From Todiramphus chloris collaris (taxonomy: Eukaryota > Chordata > Aves > Coraciiformes > Alcedinidae), in assembly GCA_025345505.1 (NCBI GenBank), contig JANVCC010000185.1, positions 1,246,701 through 1,310,700 on the forward strand: a DNA stretch of 64,000 bases, written 5' to 3'. The position numbers and the translations under genes are program-made. Of the stretch, positions 6,801 through 63,430 are shown one piece after another; within the stretch, counting starts at the first letter, position 1; each line of letters begins with the position of its first letter. The notes beneath the pieces were generated by a model. That model had not been told where the DNA came from. It made no database searches and saw nothing but the letters and a program-made list of their open reading frames with translations.

Positions 6801-9800
6801 CTCTGCAAACAAAACTAGTTAAGAGGGGAAAACCAAACATTTCACCTCCCAGCCCGCAGTGTGCCAGCCCTGCTCTCTATCTATCACTGAGTTAGCAAGA
6901 AGGGAGCTCATTGACGTCATTGGCCATGTGAAAACAGCTATTTCCCCCCCAGTTGCTGCTACAAGGAGGGCTTCTGTATTTGTTTTATTAGCATATGGGT
7001 GTCACCCTGCCCTCCAGCAATGCCCTATCTTCATGCTTCTGTAAATTTGGGAAAATTTATTTATGATACAGGGGAACAATGCGTGTCTACCAGGGGTATC
7101 CGGCGCCAGCTAACAACAATAAAGATTCACAGAGGATGATAAAGTAATGACTCAAGCAGCACTTTTTTAGAGGTCTCTCTATATTGACTGATTAGAGAAG
7201 TCCACATCCCCTCTCCTTCCCCATCCAACCCCCACCAGCGTCACTTTCAATACACCAAGTCCCAGAGTCACACAGCAAATGCTCTCGATAATGGCAAATG
7301 GCCCAAAGCCCCGCGCTCCCTACAGCTGGCACCATGCTGCAGGGCACACAGGGGCATGGCTGTGAGACGAGTCCAGCTACGGCCCCTTCCAGCAGCAGTG
7401 TTCTGTGAAGTGGAGCGGAGCTGCCTCTGCAGCTCAGAGCTCTGTAAAATCCCATGGAAATTAGGTACCAAGTTGGTTCCTTGAAGCCCTCCAAGCTGCT
7501 ACCTCACCTCCCCATGATGATCTTTGAGGGAATGCCCGCCAGCAACCTGCTCAGCAGCACAGTGGGCTGGTGTTAGCGAAGGGGAGTCTGCCCTGCTCTC
7601 CCATGCACGCCGGCACCACTGCAGGCGATGGGGATGCTCACACCGCCCATTCCCAGACTCAAACTGCTGCTCCTGGCGATGGCAATGGGCCCAGGGCAGC
7701 CAAGGGTGCTGCCAAGGGTCCCCTGTCCTAAAGTGTTGGTATTTGGGAGAGCAAGTGCAGCTGTAGGAGTCCAGCACTGGGTTTCCCAGGCTGCAAGTGC
7801 TGGCTGGGCTTCTTGGTGGCATAGATGTTAGAGCAGGCAGACTGCCTCTGCGTGATGCAGTTACCCTGGAGGAGAAAATCCTTTCTGCCCTGACTCCCCC
7901 AACTCCTGCTTTTTCACTGTGCCAAGGCAAAGACTCAGCTTAACAATAATTGCACCATTTCATCCCCGGAGCAGCCACGGTGGGGAAAACCAGCCCCTTC
8001 CCTGCTCACCAGCCACGGTGGGGAAAACCAGCCCCTTNNNNNNNNNNNNNNNNNNNNNNNNNNNNNNNNNNNNNNNNNNNNNNNNNNNNNNNNNNNNNNN
8101 NNNNNNNNNNNNNNNNNNNNNNNNNNNNNNNNNNNNNNNNNNNNNNNNNNNNNNNNNNNNNNNNNNNNNNNNNNNNNNNNNNNNNNNNNNNNNNNNNNNN
8201 NNNNNNNNNNNNNNNNNNNNNNNNNNNNNNNNNNNNNNNNNNNNNNNNNNNNNNNNNNNNNNNNNNNNNNNNNNNNNNNNNNNNNNNNNNNNNNNNNNNN
8301 NNNNNNNNNNNNNNNNNNNNNNNNNNNNNNNNNNNNNNNNNNNNNNNNNNNNNNNNNNNNNNNNNNNNNNNNNNNNNNNNNNNNNNNNNNNNNNNNNNNN
8401 NNNNNNNNNNNNNNNNNNNNNNNNNNNNNNNNNNNNNNNNNNNNNNNNNNNNNNNNNNNNNNNNNNNNNNNNNNNNNNNNNNNNNNNNNNNNNNNNNNNN
8501 NNNNNNNNNNNNNNNNNNNNNNNNNNNNNNNNNNNNNNNNNNNNNNNNNNNNNNNNNNNNNNNNNNNNNNNNNNNNNNNNNNNNNNNNNNNNNNNNNNNN
8601 NNNNNNNNNNNNNNNNNNNNNNNNNNNNNNNNNNNNNNNNNNNNNNNNNNNNNNNNNNNNNNNNNNNNNNNNNNNNNNNNNNNNNNNNNNNNNNNNNNNN
8701 NNNNNNNNNNNNNNNNNNNNNNNNNNNNNNNNNNNNNNNNNNNNNNNNNNNNNNNNNNNNNNNNNNNNNNNNNNNNNNNNNNNNNNNNNNNNNNNNNNNN
8801 NNNNNNNNNNNNNNNNNNNNNNNNNNNNNNNNNNNNNNNNNNNNNNNNNNNNNNNNNNNNNNNNNNNNNNNNNNNNNNNNNNNNNNNNNNNNNNNNNNNN
8901 NNNNNNGGCCCTGGCACTTACAGCCAGGATGAAGAGGACAGGCCCTGGCACTTACAGCCAGGATGAAGAGCACAGGCCCCACGAAGGCCCAGATGACGTT
9001 AGTCTGAACGTTCAGCCAGCAGTGGTTGTCTGCCACATACTTGTTAAAGGAAGTTGCAAGGGTCACACCCACAATAACGACTGGAAGGCCTGCAGAAAAC
9101 AAGCACAAATTAAATGCCAGGAAGGGCAGAGATGATCCATGCAGGGCAGCTCTGCTCTAGACAATTGCTTCAATGCCCCCATGACCAGCCAGGCTCCAGC
9201 ACGAGCCAGCTTAGCCTCTGAAACCCCACGAGCAACATCAATTTACTGCAGCTGAAACCTGTCCCAGCTCTGCAAGGCCAGATTTATACGCTGTCAGCAT
9301 CGCTCTCCTAGGTATAAAGCACTCCAAGTCCCAAGTCCTGATCAAAGCAATTTACTCCTCAGATTGCTTTTTTAACAAAATGGACAATCAAAGACATAAA
9401 CCAATCCAAAATATTGGAACTGGCTGCCCAGTGTCCAACTGGGGGTGTGTTTTGCAAGGAAGAGGCTCCTCTCTGGTATGAAACTCAGCTTATTCAAATG
9501 AATTCCGTGTCCCTAAAGGGCTCACTCAGAATAAAGGGTGCTTAGTCTGGACCATATTTATATTTAGATTACTAGCAGACACTAGTAATGCTCTCTGAGA
9601 ACAAAACCTTACCATAAACTTTCTCCTCCTTTTTTTTTTTTTTTTTTTTTGTATTGAACTCTGTTTTAGAAAAATAACAGAAATTCTTTTTAACTTATAT
9701 TCTAAGACCGGCAACTTGAGCCGTAAAGGTTAAGACAGCCTCTGCAGAGCACTGGTACCTGCCTCACACATGGAGTCAAACCAAACTCTCTGGAATCCCT

Positions 9801-12800
9801 CCTATTGAAACTTTTGCTAGAGAAAAACTTGACACATTTTGTGAGTGCCCAGCACAGAGGATAGAGACGATAGAGATAGACATCCAGAGGTAGATACCCC
9901 AGCCTGTCATGTAGTAGAACTTCATTCTCCTGTCTTCGCTCATGTTGACTGCTACCACTTTGCTCCACAGGAGAAGCCCCTCTACCAGCATCCACGAAAA
10001 GGCTGCCATGAAGAAGAGATGAAGGAAGGCAGTGATGGTGAAACACACCACCTGGGGAGAACAGAAATCACGGGCTGTTTCAGGAGGAGTCCTCTGGGAG
10101 CTTCCGTGTGTGGTCAGGGGGAAGAGACTGCTGCAGACTGTGCAGAAATGTACTGAAGCATCCACAAGCACCAGGAAGAGTTCTTAAAATGGCAACACGT
10201 GAACAGTCCACTGCTGCAGCTCACACACTTCATCTGTGTGACCCTCTCCAGCCACAGAAGGGGGACCTGACCGCATCTTTTCCTGCAGTTCTTGGACGTT
10301 CATTGCAGGCCTCTCATCTCAGAGCTGCTCAACACAGCCCTGGGATGGGGAAGTAGCCACAGAAAGGATCAGAACTGTATGTTGCTGTTTTCTACCTAGT
10401 TAAATTTCCCGATGGATTTTTTTTTTGTCAGAAACAAGCTGTCAGAAAAAAAAGCAGTGACTTTTCCCTACAAATGGCACAATGCATGTACGCTTATCTC
10501 CAAACACAGGGACACAGACCTTCCATAGGTGCAAGTTACAGGTAATTAATGAAACATTAATAAATGGGATTACAATTCTGTTGTGTTTGCTTGAGCAGGC
10601 CTGGTCCTGCTCGTTGAACAGAACACTTTCTGGTGAGCTTACCTGGTTGGTCTTGGCCAATTCACTGAACATGAGCAGAGCCTCTGCTGCAGCTAATGCA
10701 AAGATCAGGTTCTTGTGCACGGTTGTTCGTTCACTCTTGGGGACACTGAGGAAGGAGAGAGGAAGGCCTCAGGTGCTGGCGAATGAAAGGGTGCCCATGT
10801 TCTCACTAGTCCTTGCCGGGCTGTACACCCTGCCTGGGTGACCCGAGATCTCTGCTACTCGCTGCAAAGACAACGGTCTGGTGAGGCCGGGGACCACCCT
10901 GCTGTGTGAGCACCTGGTGCTGGGGGCACGCTTGGGTGCCGCTGCTCAGACCTTGGCCAGTGCTCCAAGGAAGAGGCAGCGAGGAGGAGGTGGAGGGAGC
11001 CACCTCTGTGCTCACAAGGCAGATCTCTGTGCTTGCCAAGCGATGCAGAACAGTTGGCAATTGAAGGAATAGTCTTTGCTCCATTTATTTTATAAAAAAT
11101 AACTCTAGCAGAGTCGCTTTTATGGCAAACGTTGTCACTGCTAACAGCCTTTCCACAGACAGCCAGGTGTGTGCACAGCTCATACAAGCATCTCCTCAGA
11201 AACAACCAGCGCTGCAACACCTCTCCAGCCAACAACAACTGCTCCCCAACCTCCCCTCTGCCACCGACTGCCAGTGCAGCTCCCCACACGCCCGCATCAC
11301 CTCACACTGACAAAGGACACCTTGTTTGTGTACTTGTTCTGAAGCAAATAGTGAACAAAAAATACAGAGAAGGCTACAGGAGTCTGGACTTTTCTTACCC
11401 AACTGCCAAGAACAAAATGAAGGTAACAACCAAGGCACAGAAGGAAACTCCACATCCAATGAAAGTCAGGGTCTGCAGTGTGAGCTCCTCCTTGGTGGTC
11501 CTCTGCTCCAACCATGAAACAACAGAAGATAAACCACCCCCCAGAATTAACCACAGACTGCTCCCAGTTCTGGCATCCACCCCGGAGTGGCAGGGGAAGC
11601 TCCTCACTCACCTGCATCTCGTAAACCTGCAGCAGGACAGCGAAGTTCGTGGTGTGGTTGCAAAAACAGGCAGTGGAGTCCGGGAGAGACGTCACCACAG
11701 AGCAGCCGGCTGTGGACCACATCCCCCCAGAGTCTGGGCTGACATGCAGGAAAAAAAACAGAGAAAACACGTGGAAATTACCATCCACTTCAACAGAACC
11801 ACACATCTCAGTGCCCAGCAGTATTTATGAGGCTGGGAGTCCTGCACGTCTGTTGGGCTGTCTATCTTGGACCAACCCTTCTTTGCTGTCGGCAACAATC
11901 ATAATTAACTAGGGCTTTCCATTTTAGTTGTATACACCTCCTTAAAGGTCACTTGCTTGTGGGTGACTTCTCCAAAGGGAATCTTCCCAGGAGAGGGCTC
12001 TACTCCAGCAGGTAGAGGATGCCAGCATGCAAAGCAGGCAAAGTATTATAGATCCCTACTCTTACCAATACATTTATATTGTTATGTTTGGTTTTCCAGT
12101 GGAAATTAAAGCTCACAAATCTGGGGACCTGAACTGAAACAAGGCACCTGAGGCTGAAGTTCCAGAAGGCACAGATGGGCCCCACCAGCTTATTGGGCAG
12201 GTCCTGCAGGCAGAGAGGGAGAAGAAGCAATTACACAGCCACGCACATACTGAATGCAGCCCGGTGCGGTTCACTCACGAGGCTGCAACAAGGTCCATCA
12301 GCACAGGAGAAATACCTCCCCAGACAAGGTGACAGAGCTGGGCATGGGACAGCCCAAGAGCTCTGGGGGCCTTAAGCCAAGGCTGCTGGGTCAGGAGGAA
12401 GCACGGCCCCTCCTCAGGGTACCTGGACGTGGTGCTGCAGGCGGTAGCGCACCGATGTGCTAATCTCCTGGTGGTCACTGAACAGAGCGGATGAGATCAC
12501 AGCGGTGCCCACCATGGTGGTCAGGAACCTGCCAGGGAAAGCATGCTGCTCACAGGCACAGGAACCACGAGACGTGCTCAGAAATCAGGATCTTGTGTTA
12601 TACAAGGGAGCTGGAGAGATCGAGAGCCATTCGGGAGTGTGTCAGTGCCACCAGCAAAGGGCCTGGGCACAGGGCAGAAAGCACCTCAGATAACCTGGCA
12701 AACAGGAACCACCATCACTGCCCCTGTAGATGCAGGATGTGACCGTGCAGACAGGTACTGTGGCATCCCAAGTGGCTGGCAGCTCAGCAGCGCAATGGCA

Positions 12801-15800
12801 GAGCCAAAGTCCAGTGAAGGAGCTGGGAGATGTGCTGGGATGGATGTGTGGGCTGCCATCCCCACCTAGTGTTCAGAGACCTCCCGGGAGAGCAGCGAGC
12901 TCTGCCTCCCTCCCGCTCCGCAGAGCGACCCTGGCTCCAGCAGCTCCTGCCCCAGCCGGAGGGGGCGATGGAGCAGCCCCAGGGCTCTGCAGCAGAGCAG
13001 AAAACCTCGGGGGAAACAGAAGCACTTGGAAGAGACACCGTGGTGCACAGAACCATAGAGTCATTGAACCCTTTAGATTGGAAATGACCTTTAAGATCAC
13101 AAAGTCCAATGATTCCTCCAACACTGCCAGGGCACCAGTGCCCCCTGTCCCTCAGCACCACAGCTCCATGGGTTATAGAAATCCCTCCAGGGATCATGGG
13201 GACTCCCCCACTGCCCTGGGCAGCCTGGGACAGCCCTGGACAACTTTTTCAGGGAAGAAATGTTTCCTAATGTCCAACTTAAACCTCCCCTGGCACCATT
13301 TGAATTTATTTCACTCACTTCTGTCCTCTGTCAGAGGCAGCCACATCCTGGGAGACACGGGTGCTGCCAGCACTGGACAGGCTGCGCTGCAGGGAGCCGT
13401 AGCCGAACCACATGTGCTTCACCATCACCCCGCAGAGACCTGGAGGGACAGAGCCGTGCAGGATGGGTGCACACAGGGCAGCTCTCAGCAGCCCATGCTT
13501 CAGCTGCCCTGTTCTGGGGGTGGGATACTGGGGGTCCAAGGCACCCACAGCTTCAAGCTGTGTCTGTAGAGAGGCTGTAGAGAATCTCTCCCCTGTGGCC
13601 CAGCTCCCTTCCACCAAGGGCACGTCCTCCCCGCTGCACGTGTGTGGGGTGAAGAGCTCCTGCCATTCAGGAAGATGCTGCAGAAGTGCCAAGGGGAGAG
13701 CCAGGGAAGCACAGGCATCACAACCCACCTCTGTTTTTCAGTCTTTGCATTTCTTCTGCAGGAATTTCAATGAGGTCATGCCTGCCTTTCTCAGGGCTCT
13801 GGACCAGATACGCCTCACTGCTCAGCTCTGGCCCGCTCAGCTCCAGCTTCCTGACCTCCATTCCTGGGGAGGGGTAAAATCAGGTGCTGAACCAGGGTTC
13901 AGCCTCAACCCAGAGCTACTGCTCCCCCAGAGTACCACAGGGACATTATAACTCCAGCCAAGACCCACAGCAGCAGCAGACAGATCCCTTTCAGTGCAAA
14001 CCTCGTGCATCTGGGCTCAGTTTGTCTCCTGTGCCCAGATGTTTCTTACGATCACAGTGTGAGAGGTGCCTTCACACTGTGACACTTCCGCATGGAGGAA
14101 AGGGGGAGATGGTTGTAGGCTGAGCAAGAGATGAGCCAGAGGAAGAGAGGTGCCAGGAGTGGACTTGGATTGGGAACCAGGCAGGATGACTAAGCTGGGT
14201 CCCAGTGTGATGCCTTTCCCCAGCTCGCCAGTGCCACTCACCGACATTCCTGTGCTGGATCCTGATCCTTGTCCTCCCGGTGGTCAGCAGCAAGGCTAAG
14301 TGTGACATCATTCTGTCACAGAGCTCAACAATAGCCATGGGCCCTCTGATAACCTACAAACACGCAGAGAGCAATGGAAATCAGCACCTGCACCACCAGC
14401 TCACACTGCCCACAGCTCACAAGAATTTCTTAAATGCTTGGCCTTTGGCAGAAAAAGGGAAGTTAAGATTCAAAGCTTTTGCTTTCCTTTGATTTCCTCA
14501 CTAAAGGATGTTTCCAGTTCCTTCAGCAAGGAGAGCAGACTGGCAACAAGGGAAACTTTCTGGTCTTTATAAAAAGCCATTAAACCAGCATGGAAATAAA
14601 TAACTAAAGAAGCTTCTGGAAAGAAAGTAGATTTTTAGACCTGACTCTTGATTTTGGCAAAGCTGTAAAAGAACCATCCTCGCTTCCTGGAAAAGGCTTC
14701 ACCCAGAAATCAACTCCACTGCAGGAAGGGTAGCAGGTGACTGGCCCCATTATGCAAGGTCCTGTGTGTGCTGGGCAACACAAGTGCCACCCCGTAGTAC
14801 ACAAACTCAAACCTCTTCTCCTTCAGCAGGCAGATCTGCTGCACCAGCCACGCTGGGCCAGAGCTGGGTTTATGCCACTGTCAAGAAGCTGTGAGTAATT
14901 GTGGCCACGGAGACCTAAGCAACTCTAAGAGATGAGGTAAACTCTGAACTATTCAGCATCCTTTCATCTCTGGAGGTCCCTGGCTCGGTTCCTGGAGCAC
15001 TGGCCAGGCCAGATGCTGTCACATATTTCCCAGAGACAGGTGGAGAGTGCAGACCATACAACAGACACAAAAGACCCACATGAGAAGAGAAGAAGGTAAT
15101 GGAGAAAATCCTAATGGGGATGGGATGATGGAAATCCCTCACACAAAGCCTGATGGTGTTTTGAACAGCGTGGGGGCTGATGACAGATCGCTCCTTGGCA
15201 GCTCCCCCATGGAAAATACAACAAACTAGAAAGTGAAGGGCATTGCCCTGCCAGAGACAGCAGGACGTGGGAGCAAGGCATCTACAAAGCACCAGGAATC
15301 TGCAAACTGTGAGTAAGCACATAAATCCAGGCTGAGAAAATGGAGAAGCTTCAAGAGAGCTGAGACAACTGCTGAGTTTGGTAGGATGGCACCACTTGAC
15401 TGAACTTGTTTGCAGAAGAACTTGTTTGCACCTCCAACAAATGAGTCAGCAGTGAGGCAGCCAGCCCTCACCTGAGCTGGCAAGGAGGCTCTGTGCCCAT
15501 CTGCAGCATTTTCACAAGCTCCAGAATATGGCCAGAAAGGCTACTTGTGCCCATGCAAGGACACGTCCTCAGCCCGTGGTCATGCAGCAGGCCAAGGAGC
15601 TGCACAGGCCACGAGATGAAGAGCTGTGGCACCGGGCGGCCAGGCTGCTGGTGACACTGTTACCTGGCTGACTGATGACCACGTTCCAATATTCTGCTCT
15701 TCCAAGATAAACTCAGTCACTTCCACATAATACTGGCCCAACTGCTCCAGCATCTCCGGCTCCTGTCCCTCCTGGACTTCCAGATCAGAAACTTGCTTTA

Positions 15801-18800
15801 GCAAATGAAGCACTGCAAGGAGGTCAGACGACTCCAACACGGGTGCCTCTGCTTCCCGCAGAACAGTTGCCAAGACATCAAGAGCATCAAGAGCAACAGA
15901 GAGGTTCATGTCCTGGATATCACTTGTGAAGATGTTCTCAGAAATCTGCCATGGAAAAGACGTTTTAGTTCACTGCAGAGCCCTGATTCTGCCTGATCAT
16001 CAGCTACGCCTTGGTACTGCCCTGCATGCCCTTACAGGCGTCAGGACACCTGCCTGGCCAAGCAGGCATAACTCAGGGTGGGAGATCTGCCTTGACAACT
16101 GGAACTCTGCTGTCCAGGTTCTCAATCTCGGTGAGACGAGTCAGCCTGAAGAAACACTTTGCTCGTTTCACCACAGCACTATTTCCAGTTGTACTGGTCA
16201 CGCTCTCTGACAGCAGCTGAGGAAACGCTACAGGCATAACTGCTGTCAAAGGGACCTCAAACACCAGTAGGTGCCAGCAAGCCCACCCCAACAGCTCCTG
16301 CCTGCTCCTGGTGTCAGCTGCCACTGCTGGGGCTGTAGGACTCACCACAGTCCTCTCTGCGAGCGTGTTCACGCGGCTGACAAGCGAACGGCTGGATTCC
16401 AGCTGAGCTCTCTGCAGCTGCCAGTATGCATCTGAGAACAAAACAACAGCACAAGCATTGCTGTGGTGTCCAGCAGCATGGTGCCATGAGCAAAGCCTGG
16501 GGAATGGCCCTCACACGGTGGGTAAGTTTATAGGACAGTCAGGGCAAGGAGACTTCGTAGCCGTACTTTATTTCTAGTACAAGATCCCATCTGGAAAGAC
16601 AGCCTAACACTTCTTTTCTGCCTCCTCCCCATGTTTCCCTGGCCAGTAAGTCTGGAGATGCCTGCATTGGGAGCATTCTACAGCACTCCAGCCAGAAGCC
16701 ATGTAATGTGCACAACTGCTGCTCACAGGAGAACAGCAAAGCAGCCTGTCAGCACATGTGCACCCACAGCAAATCACAGCTACAGCAGGTTGTGCACATG
16801 GTCTGTTCGGAGCAGACACGAAGCCTCCCCATCAATGCCCATCACTCTAGCATGGAGCTCCAGGAGTGAATGCTGTGGAAGTAACGAATAAATAAATAAC
16901 AGATGCCATACCCTTTCTGTAGCAACAGATAAAAGGCAAAGACTGCAAACAAGATGTGTAACTGAATCCACTGCTGCCAGCTTCAAAAACTCGGCATTCC
17001 TCAACAGGCCCTGTGGAAACACACACAAAGAGAAGGGCCAGGTCCCCCAGAGACGTGCCACCCCCAGCAGGTATCACACTTCCTGCAAGCAATCCACAAA
17101 CCCTGCTGAAGACAAAAGCTGTGAGCTCCTCAGGCAGCCCTGGAGTCAGAGCAGAGCAGGGACTGTGCTCAGAAACTGCTCCCAACCTGCCTGGTAAATC
17201 CTCTCCCGAAGGAACTCAGAGGAGGTGGCAGTGCCAGGTCCTGAGTCCGTGACTGGTCAGCAATGTCACACCAGTCTGGCTGAGAGGCTGAATCCCCCCT
17301 CCCAGCAGAACATGGATTTACTGGGTGTGCAAAGCCCCGGAACAGCACCGCTGACAAGGCAGCCATGCCCCAGCTCTCAGCAGAAGAGGAAGCCTGTCAA
17401 TGGCCCAGGAGACCTGAGCAGTTCGCTTTGCTGGGGTCACTGCAGGGGTCTTCAACGACCAAGGGTTTGGTGATGACTGGGCCTCTAGGTACGATTTGTA
17501 AACTGCCCAGCCCAGCTCTGAACGTGCTTCTGCTTTCCTTCCTGAAGGAGAAGTATCATTCCCCAGACCACACCAAATTCCCTAAGGATGGGCCTGGATT
17601 CCTGGATTACCCCAGTTGCTGACCCCCTGCTGCAGAAGGGAGCTGGAGCAGGGAGGACAATGACACTTACCTGGGCAGAGAAACTGTGTGGTCACTTCCT
17701 GAACGGTGCTTTCAACCTCCAGAGCGTTTGGGCTCCACCCAAATACAAGGTCTTGCTCTACCACCCAGCACGACCGAACCTTCTCAATCTGCTCTGCACT
17801 GAGGACTTTCTGCCAGATGTGCAAGTCGGTGATGTTCCCACTGAAGGACTCTTTCTTCCTGAAGGTGCCTCCCAGGGAATCTTGATCCTGCCCAATTATG
17901 AAAGTCCCCTGGCCGTAGATGGCCTGGGGGGCAGATGTCCCCACAGCACACAGGCCGCCGGCAGATGCTCTCCTTTTACCATCAGCGTAGATGGCCCAGG
18001 TCCCATTTTCCTGCTGCCAGGTCACGCAGAAGTGATGCCACTGTCCATCAGCACGGAACACGGGCAGGTATGGGGAATGGTGCTCATGGACTATGAGAGC
18101 AAATCGAACAAAGCCTTCCTCATCGACAAAGCCGCGGAGCTGGAACTCGTTCATAAAAGCCGGCACAGCGTAGGAGAAGACGGTAGCAATCTCCTGGGTC
18201 CTGGTGTCCCACTGGAGGTGGGCACAGGCTGTGACAGCAGGCAGTGCTGGGAAGTCAGCGAGCACCCTTGCGTACTTTGTGTCTGTTTTGTTTCTGAATA
18301 CCAGGACTGGTACAACGTGGTCCCCTAGAAAGAGAAATTTCAGCCAGCATAAAGGAAGAAGTGTGGGCCAAAGCCTGCTCACCGTCCACTGGGATGAAAC
18401 CATCATTTTCATTTGCCTCCTACTCAGGCTAAGAACTCACAGGCCCTGCAGGCAAGGGCATAACACAGCTTCTGCTTCCCCTGTGCCTGGAGGGGATCAG
18501 GAGGGCAGGCCAGCTGAGATTGCATCATTTCAGCAAGCGTAATTTCCAGATACTTAGTTTTCTAGCAGATAGGATTGAAAGCAATGAATATGGAAGGAAC
18601 AGCATGTTCCCAATCTTCCCATGTATAGCAACCAAGAGCATAGTCAAACGACCTTTGAGGCATCTGCCACATGGAACCTTCTGCTGGGGCACTCCCATTC
18701 TCCTGGTCCTGTCTCTAACACCATTGCTCTGCAGGACCCACAGATCACAAGTGGTGAAGCTGAGCAAAGCCAGACCCGCTTTACAGGGAGAGAGACGGCA

Positions 18801-20144
18801 CCGAAGGACAGAGCAGAGGAGCCCCTTCACAACTCCCTTCTGCTGCAGTGCTTTAAAAGACCTGGGCAGTGACCAGTTGATGTGCTGGGATCACTGTTGC
18901 TCATGTTGCCAGTTCCAGCTGGTGACTAGAGGCCCTGGGTGTTACCACACTGACAATAAAAAATGAGCAGAAACTTTTCCAGTCAGATTAATTTTTCAGA
19001 AAAAGAGCCAGCAAGGAACATGCCTCCAAAGAGTCCAAGCCCGCTTATACTCACGTCTCCGTCTGGGTTTGTGCAGGACACCATCCCTTTCGTTTAGCCA
19101 GACAGGACCTCTGATGTGGTGGGACTGCAGCAGTGCGCTGAAGGAAGCTTGCTCACTGTCCTGGGGTTCAAAAAGCAACTGAGCAAAGCGCTGTTCACAG
19201 TATCTGTCTGCATGCCACCAGTCCAAAGCAGTGGCCACATATTCGTACATGTGTCTTGAGGTCTCAACTGTGACAGGAGCAAAACCTAGAGAAAGACACA
19301 CCTGATGTGGAGAAACAGAAAGACTCCCCGACCCATTGTGGTGCCACGCTACAGGAGCAGTCTCCTGCAGGAGCCCCTGGGATGTTCATTGAGCACAGTG
19401 TGACAGCAAAGTCCAGACCATACTGGACCTAAAATGAGGGACATCTGTCAGAGTCTCACAAACGGAACTGCTGGCTGAGGGCCGGAGCCAGGCACACTTC
19501 TCTGGGATGCACAAAACCATGTTGAGCTCAGCCCAAAGGAAAAGCTCACCATGGTATGCGCAGGGATCGCCCAGGGGTTGTAAGAGCTTGCTCCAAGCAG
19601 CTCTGCACAAGCCAATTTTCTCACTTTATCCCTAATTCCCAGCCCCTGCCAGCCTCTGCATTTGCACGTGCAAACTGCAAGCACAGAATGGTCTGGTTTG
19701 TTTTGTTGCAGTGGCACAAAGGCTGGCAGCTGAGCACTGCCTACCTGATTTCAGACAGTGGTTTCAGAGTCAGCCAAGCAAATGCTTAGCTATGAAAATA
19801 GAATTTCAGGCACAAAACAGGGTATCAGAAAAAGTTTCTTTACCTTTGTTTGTGCCACTGGACATCTTCTTACGCGTTGTTTCTTTGCACTGAATATCGC
19901 TTGTAAAAATACACAGGTGGTGGTAAAAGCACTAACCTTTAGAAGTCTGATTCTTGGCAAGGGCTGCGAAGGCAAAGAGACTCCTGGACAGGCTGCCGAC
20001 CTGTGGAACAGGAGGGTTTCTAACATTCATATAAAGCATTAGTGTTATCTCAAATACTCAAAGTATTAACACCACTGTAAAACTCACCAGAAAGCTGAAG
20101 AACCAAGAATCGGGTCTCAAGTCTCTCCTAAACATGCTGACCAT
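761..20144 (-). CDS. ADGRD2: ADGRD2 (GPR144), adhesion G-protein-coupled receptor D2, multi-exon gene
   Basis: Class B2 adhesion GPCR of the plasma membrane; ligand and coupling are not known to me. Coding exons in transcript order: 20088-20144, 19937-20000, 19055-19285, 17671-18324, 16912-17010, 16346-16431, 15664-15945, 14242-14353, 13729-13863, 13319-13439, 12423-12528, 12148-12203, 11612-11738, 11399-11502, 10643-10745, 9898-10051, 8956-9089, [one missing], 6290-6410, 2114-2155, 1848-1901, 1372-1516, 761-807. All have GT-AG boundaries and compatible phases. The model gives about 1011 residues plus the missing exon. Order: signal peptide (1-34), lectin-like N half (42-117), pentraxin (119-335), lectin-like C half (337-368), GAIN (about 370-697), GPS cleavage at about 697/698, then the 7TM region. 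Naming rests on the pentraxin-GAIN-7TM order and PSMB7 adjacency. ADGRD1 is the main alternative and lacks this neighbour. The 3' end is unresolved. Confidence 0.9.
1372..1516 (-). CDS. ADGRD2: ADGRD2 coding exon 22: cytoplasmic tail
   Basis: This 145-nt exon, phase 0 to 1, codes a Ser/Pro/Asn-rich tail that begins NCSHPISYLSSPRNTT and ends KNITSK. It has canonical splice sites and lacks hydrophobic segments, consistent with an intracellular C-terminus. Confidence 0.8.
1848..1901 (-). CDS. ADGRD2: ADGRD2 coding exon 21: helix 8
   Basis: This 54-nt exon, phase 0 to 0, codes VRNAIQRMKDKKKALSFT, a basic amphipathic segment directly after TM7 that fits helix 8. The donor is GTAAGT. Confidence 0.88.
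2114..2155 (-). CDS. ADGRD2: ADGRD2 coding exon 20: TM7
   Basis: This 42-nt exon, phase 0 to 0, codes GLYIFLVYAVYNSE, the second half of TM7. Short exons at this point are usual for adhesion GPCRs. Confidence 0.92.
2156..6289. other. large ADGRD2 intron between TM6/7 and TM7 exons
   Basis: A 4.1-kb intron of moderately GC-rich unique sequence. It contains a 12-bp minisatellite at 3349-3456 and a GATA/E-box-containing stretch at about 2930-3090. No additional exon with correct phase was found. Confidence 0.6.
3349..3456. repeat. 12-bp minisatellite, nine units
   Basis: Nine head-to-tail units of YTCCTGCCYGTG with alternating C/T variants, giving a 24-bp higher-order pattern. Because the period is a multiple of three, long repetitive open frames run through it on both strands; they are not genes. 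Confidence 0.92.
6290..6410 (-). CDS. ADGRD2: ADGRD2 coding exon 19: TM6, ECL3 and start of TM7
   Basis: This 121-nt exon is phase 2 to 0. It codes AKPILVLLPVLGLTWVCGVL (TM6 with its conserved tryptophan) and AYVFIMLNSLQ. It needs a preceding exon ending in phase 2, whereas exon 17 ends in phase 0, so one exon is missing between them. Confidence 0.95.
7973..8037. repeat. 38-bp tandem repeat truncated by gap
   Basis: One full unit and most of a second (period 38, from AGCCACGGTGGGGAAAACC) run directly into the N block. The array probably continues into the gap. Confidence 0.85.
8038..8906. other. assembly gap (869 N)
   Basis: Unresolved sequence flanked on both sides by short tandem duplications (period 38 on the left, 34 on the right). 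It lies between ADGRD2 exons 17 and 19 and very probably contains the missing exon 18 (end of TM5 and third intracellular loop). Open frames crossing it are artefacts of N translation. Confidence 0.97.
8907..8974. repeat. 34-bp tandem duplication covering a splice donor
   Basis: Two near-identical 34-bp units (GGCCCTGGCACTTACAGCCA core), differing at one visible base, abut the gap. On the minus strand each holds the exon 17 end and its GTAAGT donor, so the donor is duplicated at 8916-8921. Confidence 0.88.
8956..9089 (-). CDS. ADGRD2: ADGRD2 coding exon 17: TM4, ECL2 and start of TM5
   Basis: This 134-nt exon is phase 1 to 0. It codes LPVVIVGVTLATSF, then DNHCWLN (conserved ECL2 Cys-Trp) and IWAFVGPVLFILA. 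The donor region is duplicated next to the adjoining gap. Confidence 0.95.
9630..9650. repeat. poly(T) tract
   Basis: A run of 21 T in an ADGRD2 intron, that is, poly(A) on the transcribed strand. No SINE-like body is recognisable next to it. Confidence 0.95.
9898..10051 (-). CDS. ADGRD2: ADGRD2 coding exon 16: TM3, ICL2 and start of TM4
   Basis: This 154-nt exon is phase 0 to 1. It codes VVCFTITAFLHLFFMAAFSW followed by MLVEGLLLW, the hallmark TM3 signature of adhesion GPCRs, and then KFYYMTGWG. The Cys at the start of TM3 would pair with the ECL2 cysteine in the next exon. Confidence 0.95.
10643..10745 (-). CDS. ADGRD2: ADGRD2 coding exon 15: ICL1 and TM2
   Basis: This 103-nt exon is phase 2 to 0. 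It codes VPKSERTTVHKNLIFALAAA, typical of the first intracellular loop ('t.iH.Nl') and start of TM2 in adhesion GPCRs, and ends ELAKTNQ. Confidence 0.9.
11399..11502 (-). CDS. ADGRD2: ADGRD2 coding exon 14: TM1
   Basis: This 104-nt exon is phase 0 to 2. It codes a charged juxtamembrane RTTKEELTLQ followed by a hydrophobic helix from TLTFIGCGVSF through FILFLAV, which is transmembrane helix 1. Confidence 0.9.
11612..11738 (-). CDS. ADGRD2: ADGRD2 coding exon 13: GPS cleavage site and tethered agonist
   Basis: This 127-nt exon is phase 2 to 0 and contains MWSTAGC and then CFCNHTTNFAVLLQ. All remaining GPS cysteines and the second tryptophan are present. Autoproteolysis would fall between Thr697 and Thr698, freeing a tethered agonist that starts TNFAVLL. 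The usual leucine before the scissile bond is replaced by threonine. Confidence 0.92.
12148..12203 (-). CDS. ADGRD2: ADGRD2 coding exon 12: start of GPS motif
   Basis: This 56-nt exon, phase 0 to 2, codes DLPNKLVGPICAFWNFSL. The CAFWNFS run supplies the first GPS cysteine and first conserved tryptophan. Confidence 0.88.
12423..12528 (-). CDS. ADGRD2: ADGRD2 coding exon 11: GAIN beta strands
   Basis: This 106-nt exon is phase 2 to 0. It codes FLTTMVGTAVISSALF and later VRYRLQHHVQ, matching the 'V..p.i.v.L.h' strand block of GAIN subdomain B. The donor is GTACCC. Confidence 0.82.
13049..13306 (-). mobile_element. CR1 LINE fragment (3' end), 5'-truncated
   Basis: The sequence carries the CR1 3' region in antisense: CATAGAGTCATT, then 'TTGGAAATGACCTTTAAGATC', 'CCTCCAGGGATCATGG', 'CTGCCCTGGGCAGCCTGGGA' and 'CCTAATGTCCAACTTAAACC' blocks. 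Order and spacing match avian CR1. It lies in an ADGRD2 intron in the same orientation as the gene and ends about 12 bp from the exon 10 donor. Confidence 0.9.
13319..13439 (-). CDS. ADGRD2: ADGRD2 coding exon 10: GAIN subdomain B
   Basis: This 121-nt exon is phase 1 to 2. It codes GVMVKHMWFGYGSL, resembling the WS.V.gLLY segment of related receptors, and ends RGQ plus a split lysine codon. A CR1 fragment starts only about 12 bp into the following intron. Confidence 0.8.
13729..13863 (-). CDS. ADGRD2: ADGRD2 coding exon 9: GAIN subdomain B
   Basis: This 135-nt exon is phase 1 to 1. It codes MEVRKLELSGPEL and later HDLIEIPAEEMQRL, the strand-plus-IP.E pattern seen in the equivalent part of ADGRD-type GAIN domains. 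The donor is GTGGGT. Confidence 0.8.
14242..14353 (-). CDS. ADGRD2: ADGRD2 coding exon 8: GAIN domain
   Basis: This 112-nt exon is phase 0 to 1. It begins VIRGPMAIVELCDRMMSH and ends RIQHRNV before a GTGAGT donor. Its placement is supported by phase continuity on both sides. Confidence 0.8.
15664..15945 (-). CDS. ADGRD2: ADGRD2 coding exon 7: GAIN subdomain A helices
   Basis: This 282-nt exon, phase 0 to 0, codes 94 residues beginning ISENIFTSDIQDMNL and ending WSSVSQ. It is leucine- and glutamate-rich with helical periodicity (LDALDVLATVL, LLAVLHLLKQV), as expected for the all-helical half of an adhesion-GPCR GAIN domain. Confidence 0.85.
16346..16431 (-). CDS. ADGRD2: ADGRD2 coding exon 6: linker/helix before GAIN
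   Basis: This 86-nt exon, phase 1 to 0, codes a polar helical stretch that starts AYWQLQRAQLESS and ends at a GTGAGT donor. It leads from the lectin-like domain into the GAIN subdomain A helices. Confidence 0.75.
16912..17010 (-). CDS. ADGRD2: ADGRD2 coding exon 5: C-terminal half of a C-type-lectin-like fold
   Basis: This 99-nt exon is phase 1 to 1. In the spliced frame it codes PVEEC, a Gly/Ser-rich stretch, a second Cys (356), then LPFICCYRK. This matches the end of C-type lectin domains (two inner cysteines and a PFICEY-like final strand). A second open frame through the same exon looks superficially coding but does not match the phases of exons 4 and 6. Confidence 0.75.
17671..18324 (-). 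CDS. ADGRD2: ADGRD2 coding exon 4: complete pentraxin (PTX) domain
   Basis: A single 654-nt exon, phase 1 to 1, codes residues 119-335. It holds the pentraxin signature as HFCVTWQQ (215-222), the partner cysteine Cys151, and the blocks FIIGQDQDS, GGTF and DLHIWQKVLS typical of the family's calcium-loop and C-terminal region. N-glycosylation sites NKT, NGT and NIT are visible. The signature ends in Gln where Ser or Thr is usual. The domain probably mediates extracellular ligand or glycan binding. Confidence 0.93.
19055..19285 (-). CDS. ADGRD2: ADGRD2 coding exon 3: N-terminal half of a C-type-lectin-like fold
   Basis: This 231-nt exon is phase 1 to 1 and codes residues 42-117. The pattern YEYV, then WWHADRYC, an LL-helix region and GPVWLNERDG matches the first strand, first helix with its cysteine (Cys70), and the WIG-like strand of C-type lectin domains. 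The exon ends in a basic run (KPRRR) just before the pentraxin domain. The gene assignment is firm by context; the lectin reading is my inference from motif spacing. Confidence 0.75.
19937..20000 (-). CDS. ADGRD2: ADGRD2 coding exon 2: rest of signal peptide
   Basis: This 64-nt exon runs in phase 0 to 1 between a CAG acceptor and a GTTAGT donor. It codes the hydrophobic segment SLFAFAALA followed by KNQTS. A likely signal-peptidase site follows Ala34, and NQT is a possible N-glycosylation site. The split glycine codon joins exactly to the lectin-like exon. Confidence 0.6.
20088..20144 (-). CDS. ADGRD2: ADGRD2 coding exon 1: start codon and first part of signal peptide
   Basis: Codes 19 residues from an ATG at 20144, ending at a GTGAGT donor in phase 0. 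A pyrimidine-rich AG lies directly before the ATG, so an upstream non-coding exon is likely, probably in the CpG island at 20.9-21.8 kb. The hydrophobic run WFFSFL continues into the next exon. I chose this start because its phase joins correctly and because joining the two exons makes a signal peptide. Confidence 0.6.
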
Positions 20145-32342: not shown

Positions 32343-56321
<23,979 letters not shown>

Positions 56322-58993: not shown

Positions 58994-59093
58994 NNNNNNN
59001 NNNNNNNNNNNNNNNNNNNNNNNNNNNNNNNNNNNNNNNNNNNNNNNNNNNNNNNNNNNNNNNNNNNNNNNNNNNNNNNNNNNNNNNNNNNNN
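58994..59093. other. assembly gap (100 N)
   Basis: Exactly 100 N, the conventional placeholder for a gap of unknown size, at the edge of a tandem repeat. Confidence 0.98.
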
Positions 59094-62800: not shown

Positions 62801-63430
62801 TATCCACTCCAGGCAGCTCCTGCTCCATCCCTCGCTTCCACACGCACAAAAGCCATACCCTACAAAGCCCCCGGACAGCTGCTCTACGGATGCTTACTGC
62901 AGTAAACCAAAGAGCTTCTCTCCCTCTTTCTTAAAAAGGATCTTTCTCTCCTTGTCACACATGGAAGAGTTCATAAACAAAAGTTCAAGGGCTGTCCTCT
63001 GGTGTGTTATTGCAAGGGAAAGGAAGCAAAGGAGAGGGCTTTCCCATGGTTCCCCGTTAGGTTTGCCAGCATCACAGATTTTCAGTTTCAAAATATTCCC
63101 CACTTCAAGAAATCTCTCACGTCTCAGAGTTTGTCAGCATTCAGTCCTCACAGGAATTATTGCCTTAGCCGGCCCCGAGGGCACCCCGGACACTCTGGCC
63201 ACCTCCTGTTATGCCTTGGGTGGGGGGCACGTCTCCTCCCAGGTTCCCTGTCCCTCATGGGGAGGAGCTTTGCTGCGCCCCCCACCACCTTCCCCTGCAA
63301 AAGGCTCCCCGTTTACCTTTTCAGAATAATGTTCAGCTGGAAGAGGTGGGTAGTCACATTGCTCTATTTTTTGGCAAAGAGAAAACAGGTTCATTTTATC
63401 CCCGTAGAAAGGGCTCTGAAGAGCTGCCAT
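59705..63430 (-). CDS. NEK6: NEK6, NIMA-related Ser/Thr kinase 6, C-terminal exons only (partial)
   Basis: Mitotic kinase that acts downstream of NEK9 in spindle assembly. Only the last two coding exons (63317-63430 and 59705-59815) are inside the window; the other exons lie past the right edge. Together they code the final 74 residues, the end of the kinase C-lobe: [26 protein letters not shown], and QRPDIGYVH with the conserved subdomain XI arginine. The protein ends [11 protein letters not shown]7, the closest paralogue, differs in the C-terminal tail and in the [17 protein letters not shown] region. The gene is convergent with PSMB7, as in other vertebrates. Confidence 0.96.
59816..63316. 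other. last NEK6 intron (3.5 kb)
   Basis: No exon seen. It contains a 12-bp perfect inverted repeat of TAATTA-type sites at 60560-60571 and 60678-60689 and a CpG-rich patch near 62290-62370; both may be regulatory. Confidence 0.55.
63317..63430 (-). CDS. NEK6: NEK6 penultimate coding exon
   Basis: A 114-nt exon, phase 0 to 0, from a CCAG acceptor to a GTAAAC donor, coding 38 residues of the kinase C-lobe that end AEHYSEK. Confidence 0.96.

Follow-up and report, generated by a model that had tools for sequence, protein, structure and literature searches.

A complete pentraxin exon, probably nested in the long loop of a C-type-lectin-like domain, in a candidate ADGRD2 receptor gene

The stretch of DNA analysed here (the window) covers 64 kb of a 1.17 Gb genome and carries a receptor gene on its minus strand, in which three exons, referred to as A, B and C, form the feature under study. 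Together with the neighbouring exons and the stretches that match receptor domains, they are arranged as follows:

19937..20000, minus strand: exon upstream of the first half of the C-type-lectin-like domain (CTLD), VGSLSRSLFAFAALAKNQTSK, phase 0 to 1, with one N-glycosylation sequon; its splice sites were placed by eye and its frame joins exon A
19055..19285, minus strand: exon A, predicted first half of the CTLD (beta1, a helix with Cys70, a second helix and the WIGL-like strand PVWLN), 231 nt, phase 1-1
17671..18324, minus strand: exon B, a complete pentraxin domain in a single exon, 654 nt, phase 1-1
16912..17010, minus strand: exon C, predicted last part of the CTLD (Cys341, Cys356, LPFICC), 99 nt, phase 1-1
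16346..16431, minus strand: coding exon after C, a linker towards the GAIN part, phase 1 to 0, splice sites placed by eye
15664..15945, minus strand: GAIN-domain exon stretch, Pfam GAIN 21.6 bits for the stretch alone, under the cut-off of 26.5
11612..11743, minus strand: GPS (proteolysis site) stretch, Pfam GPS 49.7 bits
9896..10051, minus strand: 7-transmembrane stretch 1, Pfam 7tm_2 49.0 bits
8953..9093, minus strand: 7-transmembrane stretch 2, Pfam 7tm_2 39.6 bits
6290..6409, minus strand: 7-transmembrane stretch 3, Pfam 7tm_2 19.7 bits, under the cut-off of 20.6

Judged by its domain content and its neighbours, the gene is best identified as ADGRD2 (GPR144), an adhesion GPCR. Pentraxin, GPS and 7tm_2 matches follow each other in successive stretches of the same strand; it is this order that groups them into one gene, with splicing between them presumed. 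ADGRD2 was chosen because the pentraxin exon of ADGRD1 is located elsewhere in the genome (L053, recognised by its sequence) and because the other pentraxin matches look different. On the plus strand, opposite to the receptor, coding pieces at 32601 and 33013 (span 32601-33096) were identified as PSMB7 by characteristic motifs. A motif search of the neighbourhood returned no NEK or nuclear-receptor motif; a NEK6/7-like C-terminal kinase piece was later spotted by eye near 63424 on the minus strand. PSMB7 is the neighbour to be expected for ADGRD2 from the human gene order, NEK6-PSMB7-ADGRD2, and the PSMB7 and NEK6/7-like pieces beside the receptor agree with this order. Runs of N occupy window positions 8038-8906 and 58994-59093; as the former lies between the 7-transmembrane stretches, the receptor gene is unreadable there. 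Pentraxin-like domains among adhesion GPCRs are listed for ADGRD1, D2, G4 and G6 in a passage of PMC10687090. Passages of two further papers describe ADGRD2 as a frequent pseudogene in mammals (PMC8584163) and report a low level in human tissue, made up partly of variants that do not code for the full-length receptor (PMC11039983). For zebrafish, enrichment in the adult testis is reported (PMC4335454).

All borders of exons A, B and C carry AG acceptors and GT donors, and the length of each exon is divisible by three. A, B and C form one open frame, and the frame is likewise open when B is skipped and A is joined directly to C. With phase 1 at the end of the exon before A and again at the start of the one that follows C, the block from A to C is in turn a 1-1 unit; the arrangement is that of a symmetric exon nested inside a symmetric pair. 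The original prediction had described a region from 16912 to 19285 in these terms, and this interval is exactly the span of the three exons, all of which are phase 1-1, with B removable without loss of frame. The motifs that it named are also present, WWHADRYC and GPVWLNERDG in exon A and EEC, TSC and LPFICCY in exon C. The numbering of the cysteines (70, 341, 356, 364 and 365) assumes 40 residues before the junction residue of exon A, as the signal-peptide exon was not located.

Exon B matched the Pfam Pentaxin family with 92.9 bits against a cut-off of 25, covering positions 2-188 of the 194 in the profile. Its best sequence matches in the PDB were neuronal pentraxin-2 (E 8.3e-27) and neuronal pentraxin-1 (E 2.7e-26); when compared with eight pentraxin pieces of its own genome, several of which are partial exons, it was nearest to a PTX3-like locus (E 2.9e-16). 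The pentraxin signature is H-x-C-x-[ST]-W-x-[ST], and the corresponding HFCVTWQQ of exon B agrees with it at every position except the last. Three N-glycosylation sequons (NKT, NGT and NIT) were read directly from the exon. In known structures the two ends of a pentraxin chain lie close together. Folds predicted for single exons without an alignment reached a mean pLDDT of 47.3 (exon A) and 41.4 (exon B), and these models were too poor for use. Exon B ends in FLCP, and exon C contains the adjacent Cys364 and Cys365; an extra cysteine left over by these could link the CTLD and the pentraxin.

For the two flanking exons, we built a first CTLD profile from 11 further loci of this genome. Aligned with these own-genome CTLDs, exon A supplies beta1, two helices, the first of which bears the cysteine, and the WIGL strand in the form PVWLN, of which the W is kept and the remainder is degenerate, while exon C supplies the second and third conserved cysteines and the final FIC. 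The four canonical CTLD cysteines (C1-C4) are in register and their order is kept. The first profile gave 25.9 bits for A+C, 22.5 bits for A (positions 3-57), 3.9 bits for C (positions 94-120), 23.1 bits for the halves in swapped order and -0.6 bits for the pentraxin; the halves match complementary regions of the profile in the correct order. With shuffled sequences that returned no reported score counted as lower, the score of A was reached by none of 20,000 shuffles (best 10.8 bits) and that of A+C likewise by none of 20,000, compared with 95 of 20,000 for C. A blind scan with the CTLD profile covered 3,361 six-frame segments, drawn from the window and from four pentraxin neighbourhoods of 9.5-10 kb, and ranked exon A first (E 3.9e-5), the next segment following at E 5.2. 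The four neighbourhoods, which belong to other genes, yielded no CTLD match better than E 5. By these sequence measures, the CTLD likeness of exon A is well beyond chance.

The halves were also searched against Pfam, singly and joined. Exon A alone matched Lectin_C with 14.6 bits (E 0.056), only just ahead of the unrelated family C5orf34_C (E 0.059), and exon C alone had no match; A+C matched Lectin_C in two stretches with 22.5 bits (E 1.9e-4), the next family following at E 0.11. As this score lies 0.1 bit below the curated Lectin_C cut-off of 22.6, and that of A+B+C at 18.3 bits, we regard A+C as CTLD-like by homology and not as a curated match. The swapped order C+A still gave 19.8 bits, so the bulk of the Lectin_C signal comes from exon A. 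A search of NCBIfam returned no match. With hhalign, A+C aligned to the first profile over columns 3-121, that is, along the whole domain, with a probability of 90% that was reached by none of 500 shuffles; A alone gave 87.6%, A+B+C 72% and C alone 2%. Among PDB sequences at E<=10, A+C had ten matches, all of them weak and none significant, of which nine were C-type-lectin-like, led by mannose receptor 2 (E 0.046), and the tenth was an RNA-binding protein (E 0.07). The original prediction had named beforehand a profile search of the joined halves, with the pentraxin removed, as one that might refute it, and the prediction withstood both the Lectin_C search and the full-length hhalign alignment. 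The lack of a curated-threshold match and of a significant PDB match would suit the view that the likeness of the flanks to a CTLD is due to chance or convergence, and that they adopt another disulfide-rich fold, which braces the pentraxin. Yet the shuffles of A and of A+C, the wide lead of Lectin_C over every other Pfam family and the predominance of C-type-lectin-like proteins among the weak PDB matches all argue against such a coincidence, which we consider highly improbable. A search of the same genome for a paralogue of A+C returned the locus itself and four places at E 3.5-7.3, which were taken as noise. Absence from the Pfam listing of this genome (133 matches) means little, since exons A and C are themselves not listed there.

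The assignment of exon C is the weaker of the two. After the weak first result for C, the profile was enlarged to 31 sequences with 20 last-half pieces of further CTLD genes. It gave C alone 7.3 bits (positions 93-119), a score that 20 of 20,000 shuffles with the cysteines preserved (highest 10.5 bits) and 6 of 20,000 full shuffles also reached. On the same profile A+C scored 27.3 bits, which was equalled or passed by 25 of 20,000 sequences carrying a shuffled C behind A (highest 32.8 bits). The blind scan at E<=10 did not contain exon C, nor did it contain a rival last half in the introns. Exon A might accordingly be seen as a degenerate half-CTLD relic, exon C as an unrelated cysteine-rich linker and the pentraxin as an ordinary domain of a bead-on-a-string array. 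Such a view is favoured by the shortness of exon C (only 32 residues, without a Pfam match of its own), by the ease with which shuffles reached its score on the first profile, by its low hhalign probability and by its absence from the blind scan. However, exon C fits the missing part of the CTLD with Cys341, Cys356 and the final FIC, few shuffles matched it on the enlarged profile either alone or behind A, and the hhalign alignment of A+C continues to column 121, and we therefore hold the relic-and-linker view to be unlikely. That exon C is part of a CTLD is supported by its modest score together with its place, order, phase and cysteines. The lectin-like character predicted for both halves was supported, strongly for A and modestly for C.

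Exon A ends 12 residues past VWLN, and 5 residues of exon C, counting the junction residue, precede the C2 cysteine. The alignment places the predicted insertion point of the pentraxin in the long loop of the CTLD, past the WIGL-like strand and ahead of the second conserved cysteine, where the original prediction had also put it. According to a passage of PMC7618208, the long loop is the variable, ligand-binding part of the CTLD. Introns at related positions were found in other CTLD genes of this genome. In CTLD2 of mannose receptor 2 (MRC2; L083, G000:C46:142380-143800), a long-loop phase-1 intron recognised by eye lies 10 residues before C2, and the last-half exon is 1-1. A further CTLD (L028/L075, G000:C21, about 8.039 Mb) is split by a phase-1 intron with its donor 15 residues from the W of WIGL and its acceptor in phase 1; exon A ends at the same distance from its own W and in the same phase. 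These precedents were sought after the fact. By a crude splice score that leaves several sites ambiguous, the best acceptor was phase 1 in 11 of 20 last-half pieces of other CTLDs, which speaks for the proposed insertion; the best donor in first-half exons of other CTLDs (n = 7) was phase 0 in five, phase 1 in one (L028) and phase 2 in one, which speaks against it. Introns downstream of the WIGL motif in other CTLD genes also appear in a passage of a Fugu CTLD survey (PMC514892). The phase-1 long-loop introns of MRC2 CTLD2 and L028/L075 are empty sites of the kind that a pentraxin exon would need. From the nested 1-1 phases, together with the phase-1 introns that other CTLDs have in this loop, we infer an origin by exon shuffling.

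So far, our findings, all of which come from one genome, are as a whole best explained by an N-terminal ADGRD2 module in which a CTLD encoded by exons A and C carries a complete pentraxin, encoded by exon B and shuffled into the long loop. On the strength of the sequence comparisons, we consider this nested module probable. Its likeliest history would start from an ancestral CTLD whose long loop was interrupted by a phase-1 intron, into which a phase 1-1 pentraxin exon was shuffled. The two CTLD parts would fold as one domain, a core that may serve as a scaffold closed by putative Cys70-Cys364 and Cys341-Cys356 disulfides, and the pentraxin would replace the long loop and provide a binding surface. 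Force, ligand or clustering acting on the pentraxin might then be passed on by the CTLD to the GAIN domain with its tethered agonist, the usual route of adhesion GPCRs. The calcium and sugar motifs of calcium-dependent lectins, EPN/QPD and WND as named in a passage of PMC7618208, are absent, and exon C has GFSYTSC at the position of WND-x-x-C. Because exon C lacks WND and the loop that would bear EPN/QPD is gone, classic calcium-dependent sugar binding by this CTLD is unlikely.

Exon B could in addition be a cassette, with an A-C splice giving a compact CTLD receptor and the inclusion of B giving the pentraxin form, which would add to the nested module and not deny it. The symmetry of B and the in-frame A-C junction, which unites the CTLD halves with a short loop, would allow such a switch; however, passages of a human transcript survey (PMC11039983) describe a pentraxin-less variant for ADGRD1 and name none for ADGRD2, and we regard the switch as quite unlikely. 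A wider proposal, which we put forward tentatively and with some doubt, is that a nested lectin-in-lectin module is general among ADGRD2 orthologues. The pentraxin would be a giant folded long loop, strain on it from ligand or oligomerisation would be levered to the GAIN domain through two closely spaced CTLD strands, and a receptor lacking exon B through skipping would be a second, compact form. If so, the module would have escaped notice because the CTLD, divided by the pentraxin, falls below detection.

ADGRD2 is poorly understood among adhesion GPCRs. If the nested module is real, it would change the domain map on which constructs and ligand screens are based, as the usual pentraxin borders would cut the CTLD in two. 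It would also illustrate cleanly how a symmetric exon can lie within the loop of a domain, and further CTLD genes in this genome have corresponding introns that are empty. Among the open-access papers searched, the relevant passages do not mention a CTLD around the ADGRD2 pentraxin; those of PMC13197933, PMC10687090, PMC8584163, PMC11039983, PMC4335454 and PMC7911577 show ADGRD2 with a pentraxin at most. These open-access passages on ADGRD2 agree with the earlier claim that family descriptions give only the pentraxin domain. A combined search of these open-access papers for domain insertions into the loop of a CTLD likewise returned none. A CTLD in ADGRD2 may already be visible in InterPro or AlphaFold DB.

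Compared with known systems, the receptor described here resembles ADGRD2/GPR144 in the literature in combining pentraxin, GPS and 7TM in one protein, the pentraxin-like domain being listed in PMC10687090; it differs in that the passages on ADGRD2 mention the pentraxin alone, with no surrounding CTLD. Exon B resembles the classical and long pentraxins, a group that includes CRP, PTX3 and the neuronal pentraxins, in its matches to neuronal pentraxin-2 and the PTX3-like locus. Classical and long pentraxins are stand-alone or C-terminal domains and are not known to be nested in another domain.

ADGRD1 belongs to the same receptor subfamily and also has a pentraxin-like domain. In contrast to that of ADGRD2, however, this domain (L053, L061, L062) is divided among two or more exons, and L053 shares 20% identity with exon B over 86 residues (E 0.06). 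ADGRD1 was rejected as the gene from which the CTLD came: 862 segments from about 9.5 kb on either side of its pentraxin exon contained no first half. One match there resembled the C-terminal half (E 0.074, 40 residues, one aligned cysteine) and was judged to be chance, and the others had E 3.3 or worse. Since the ADGRD2 pentraxin is encoded by a single exon and lies near the classical pentraxins, whereas that of ADGRD1 is split and barely similar, these sequences hint at separate pentraxin origins within the ADGRD1/ADGRD2 subfamily.

Among CTLDs, link-type domains have a compact core without canonical calcium or sugar motifs. Group V CTLDs share this absence of motifs and the compact core with A+C, as described in passages of PMC514892 and PMC7618208. 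Unlike in A+C, the long loop of both groups is short or absent and no domain replaces it. The CTLD at L028/L075 has its halves separated by about 0.5 kb that contain no domain, and yet its phase-1 split falls at the same distance from the WIGL W as the end of exon A. MRC2 CTLD2 has an ordinary long loop without an insert, and another intron interrupts its first half; nevertheless, mannose receptor 2 gives A+C its best PDB match, albeit a weak one, and this CTLD shares with A+C the phase-1 intron of the long loop and the 1-1 last-half exon.
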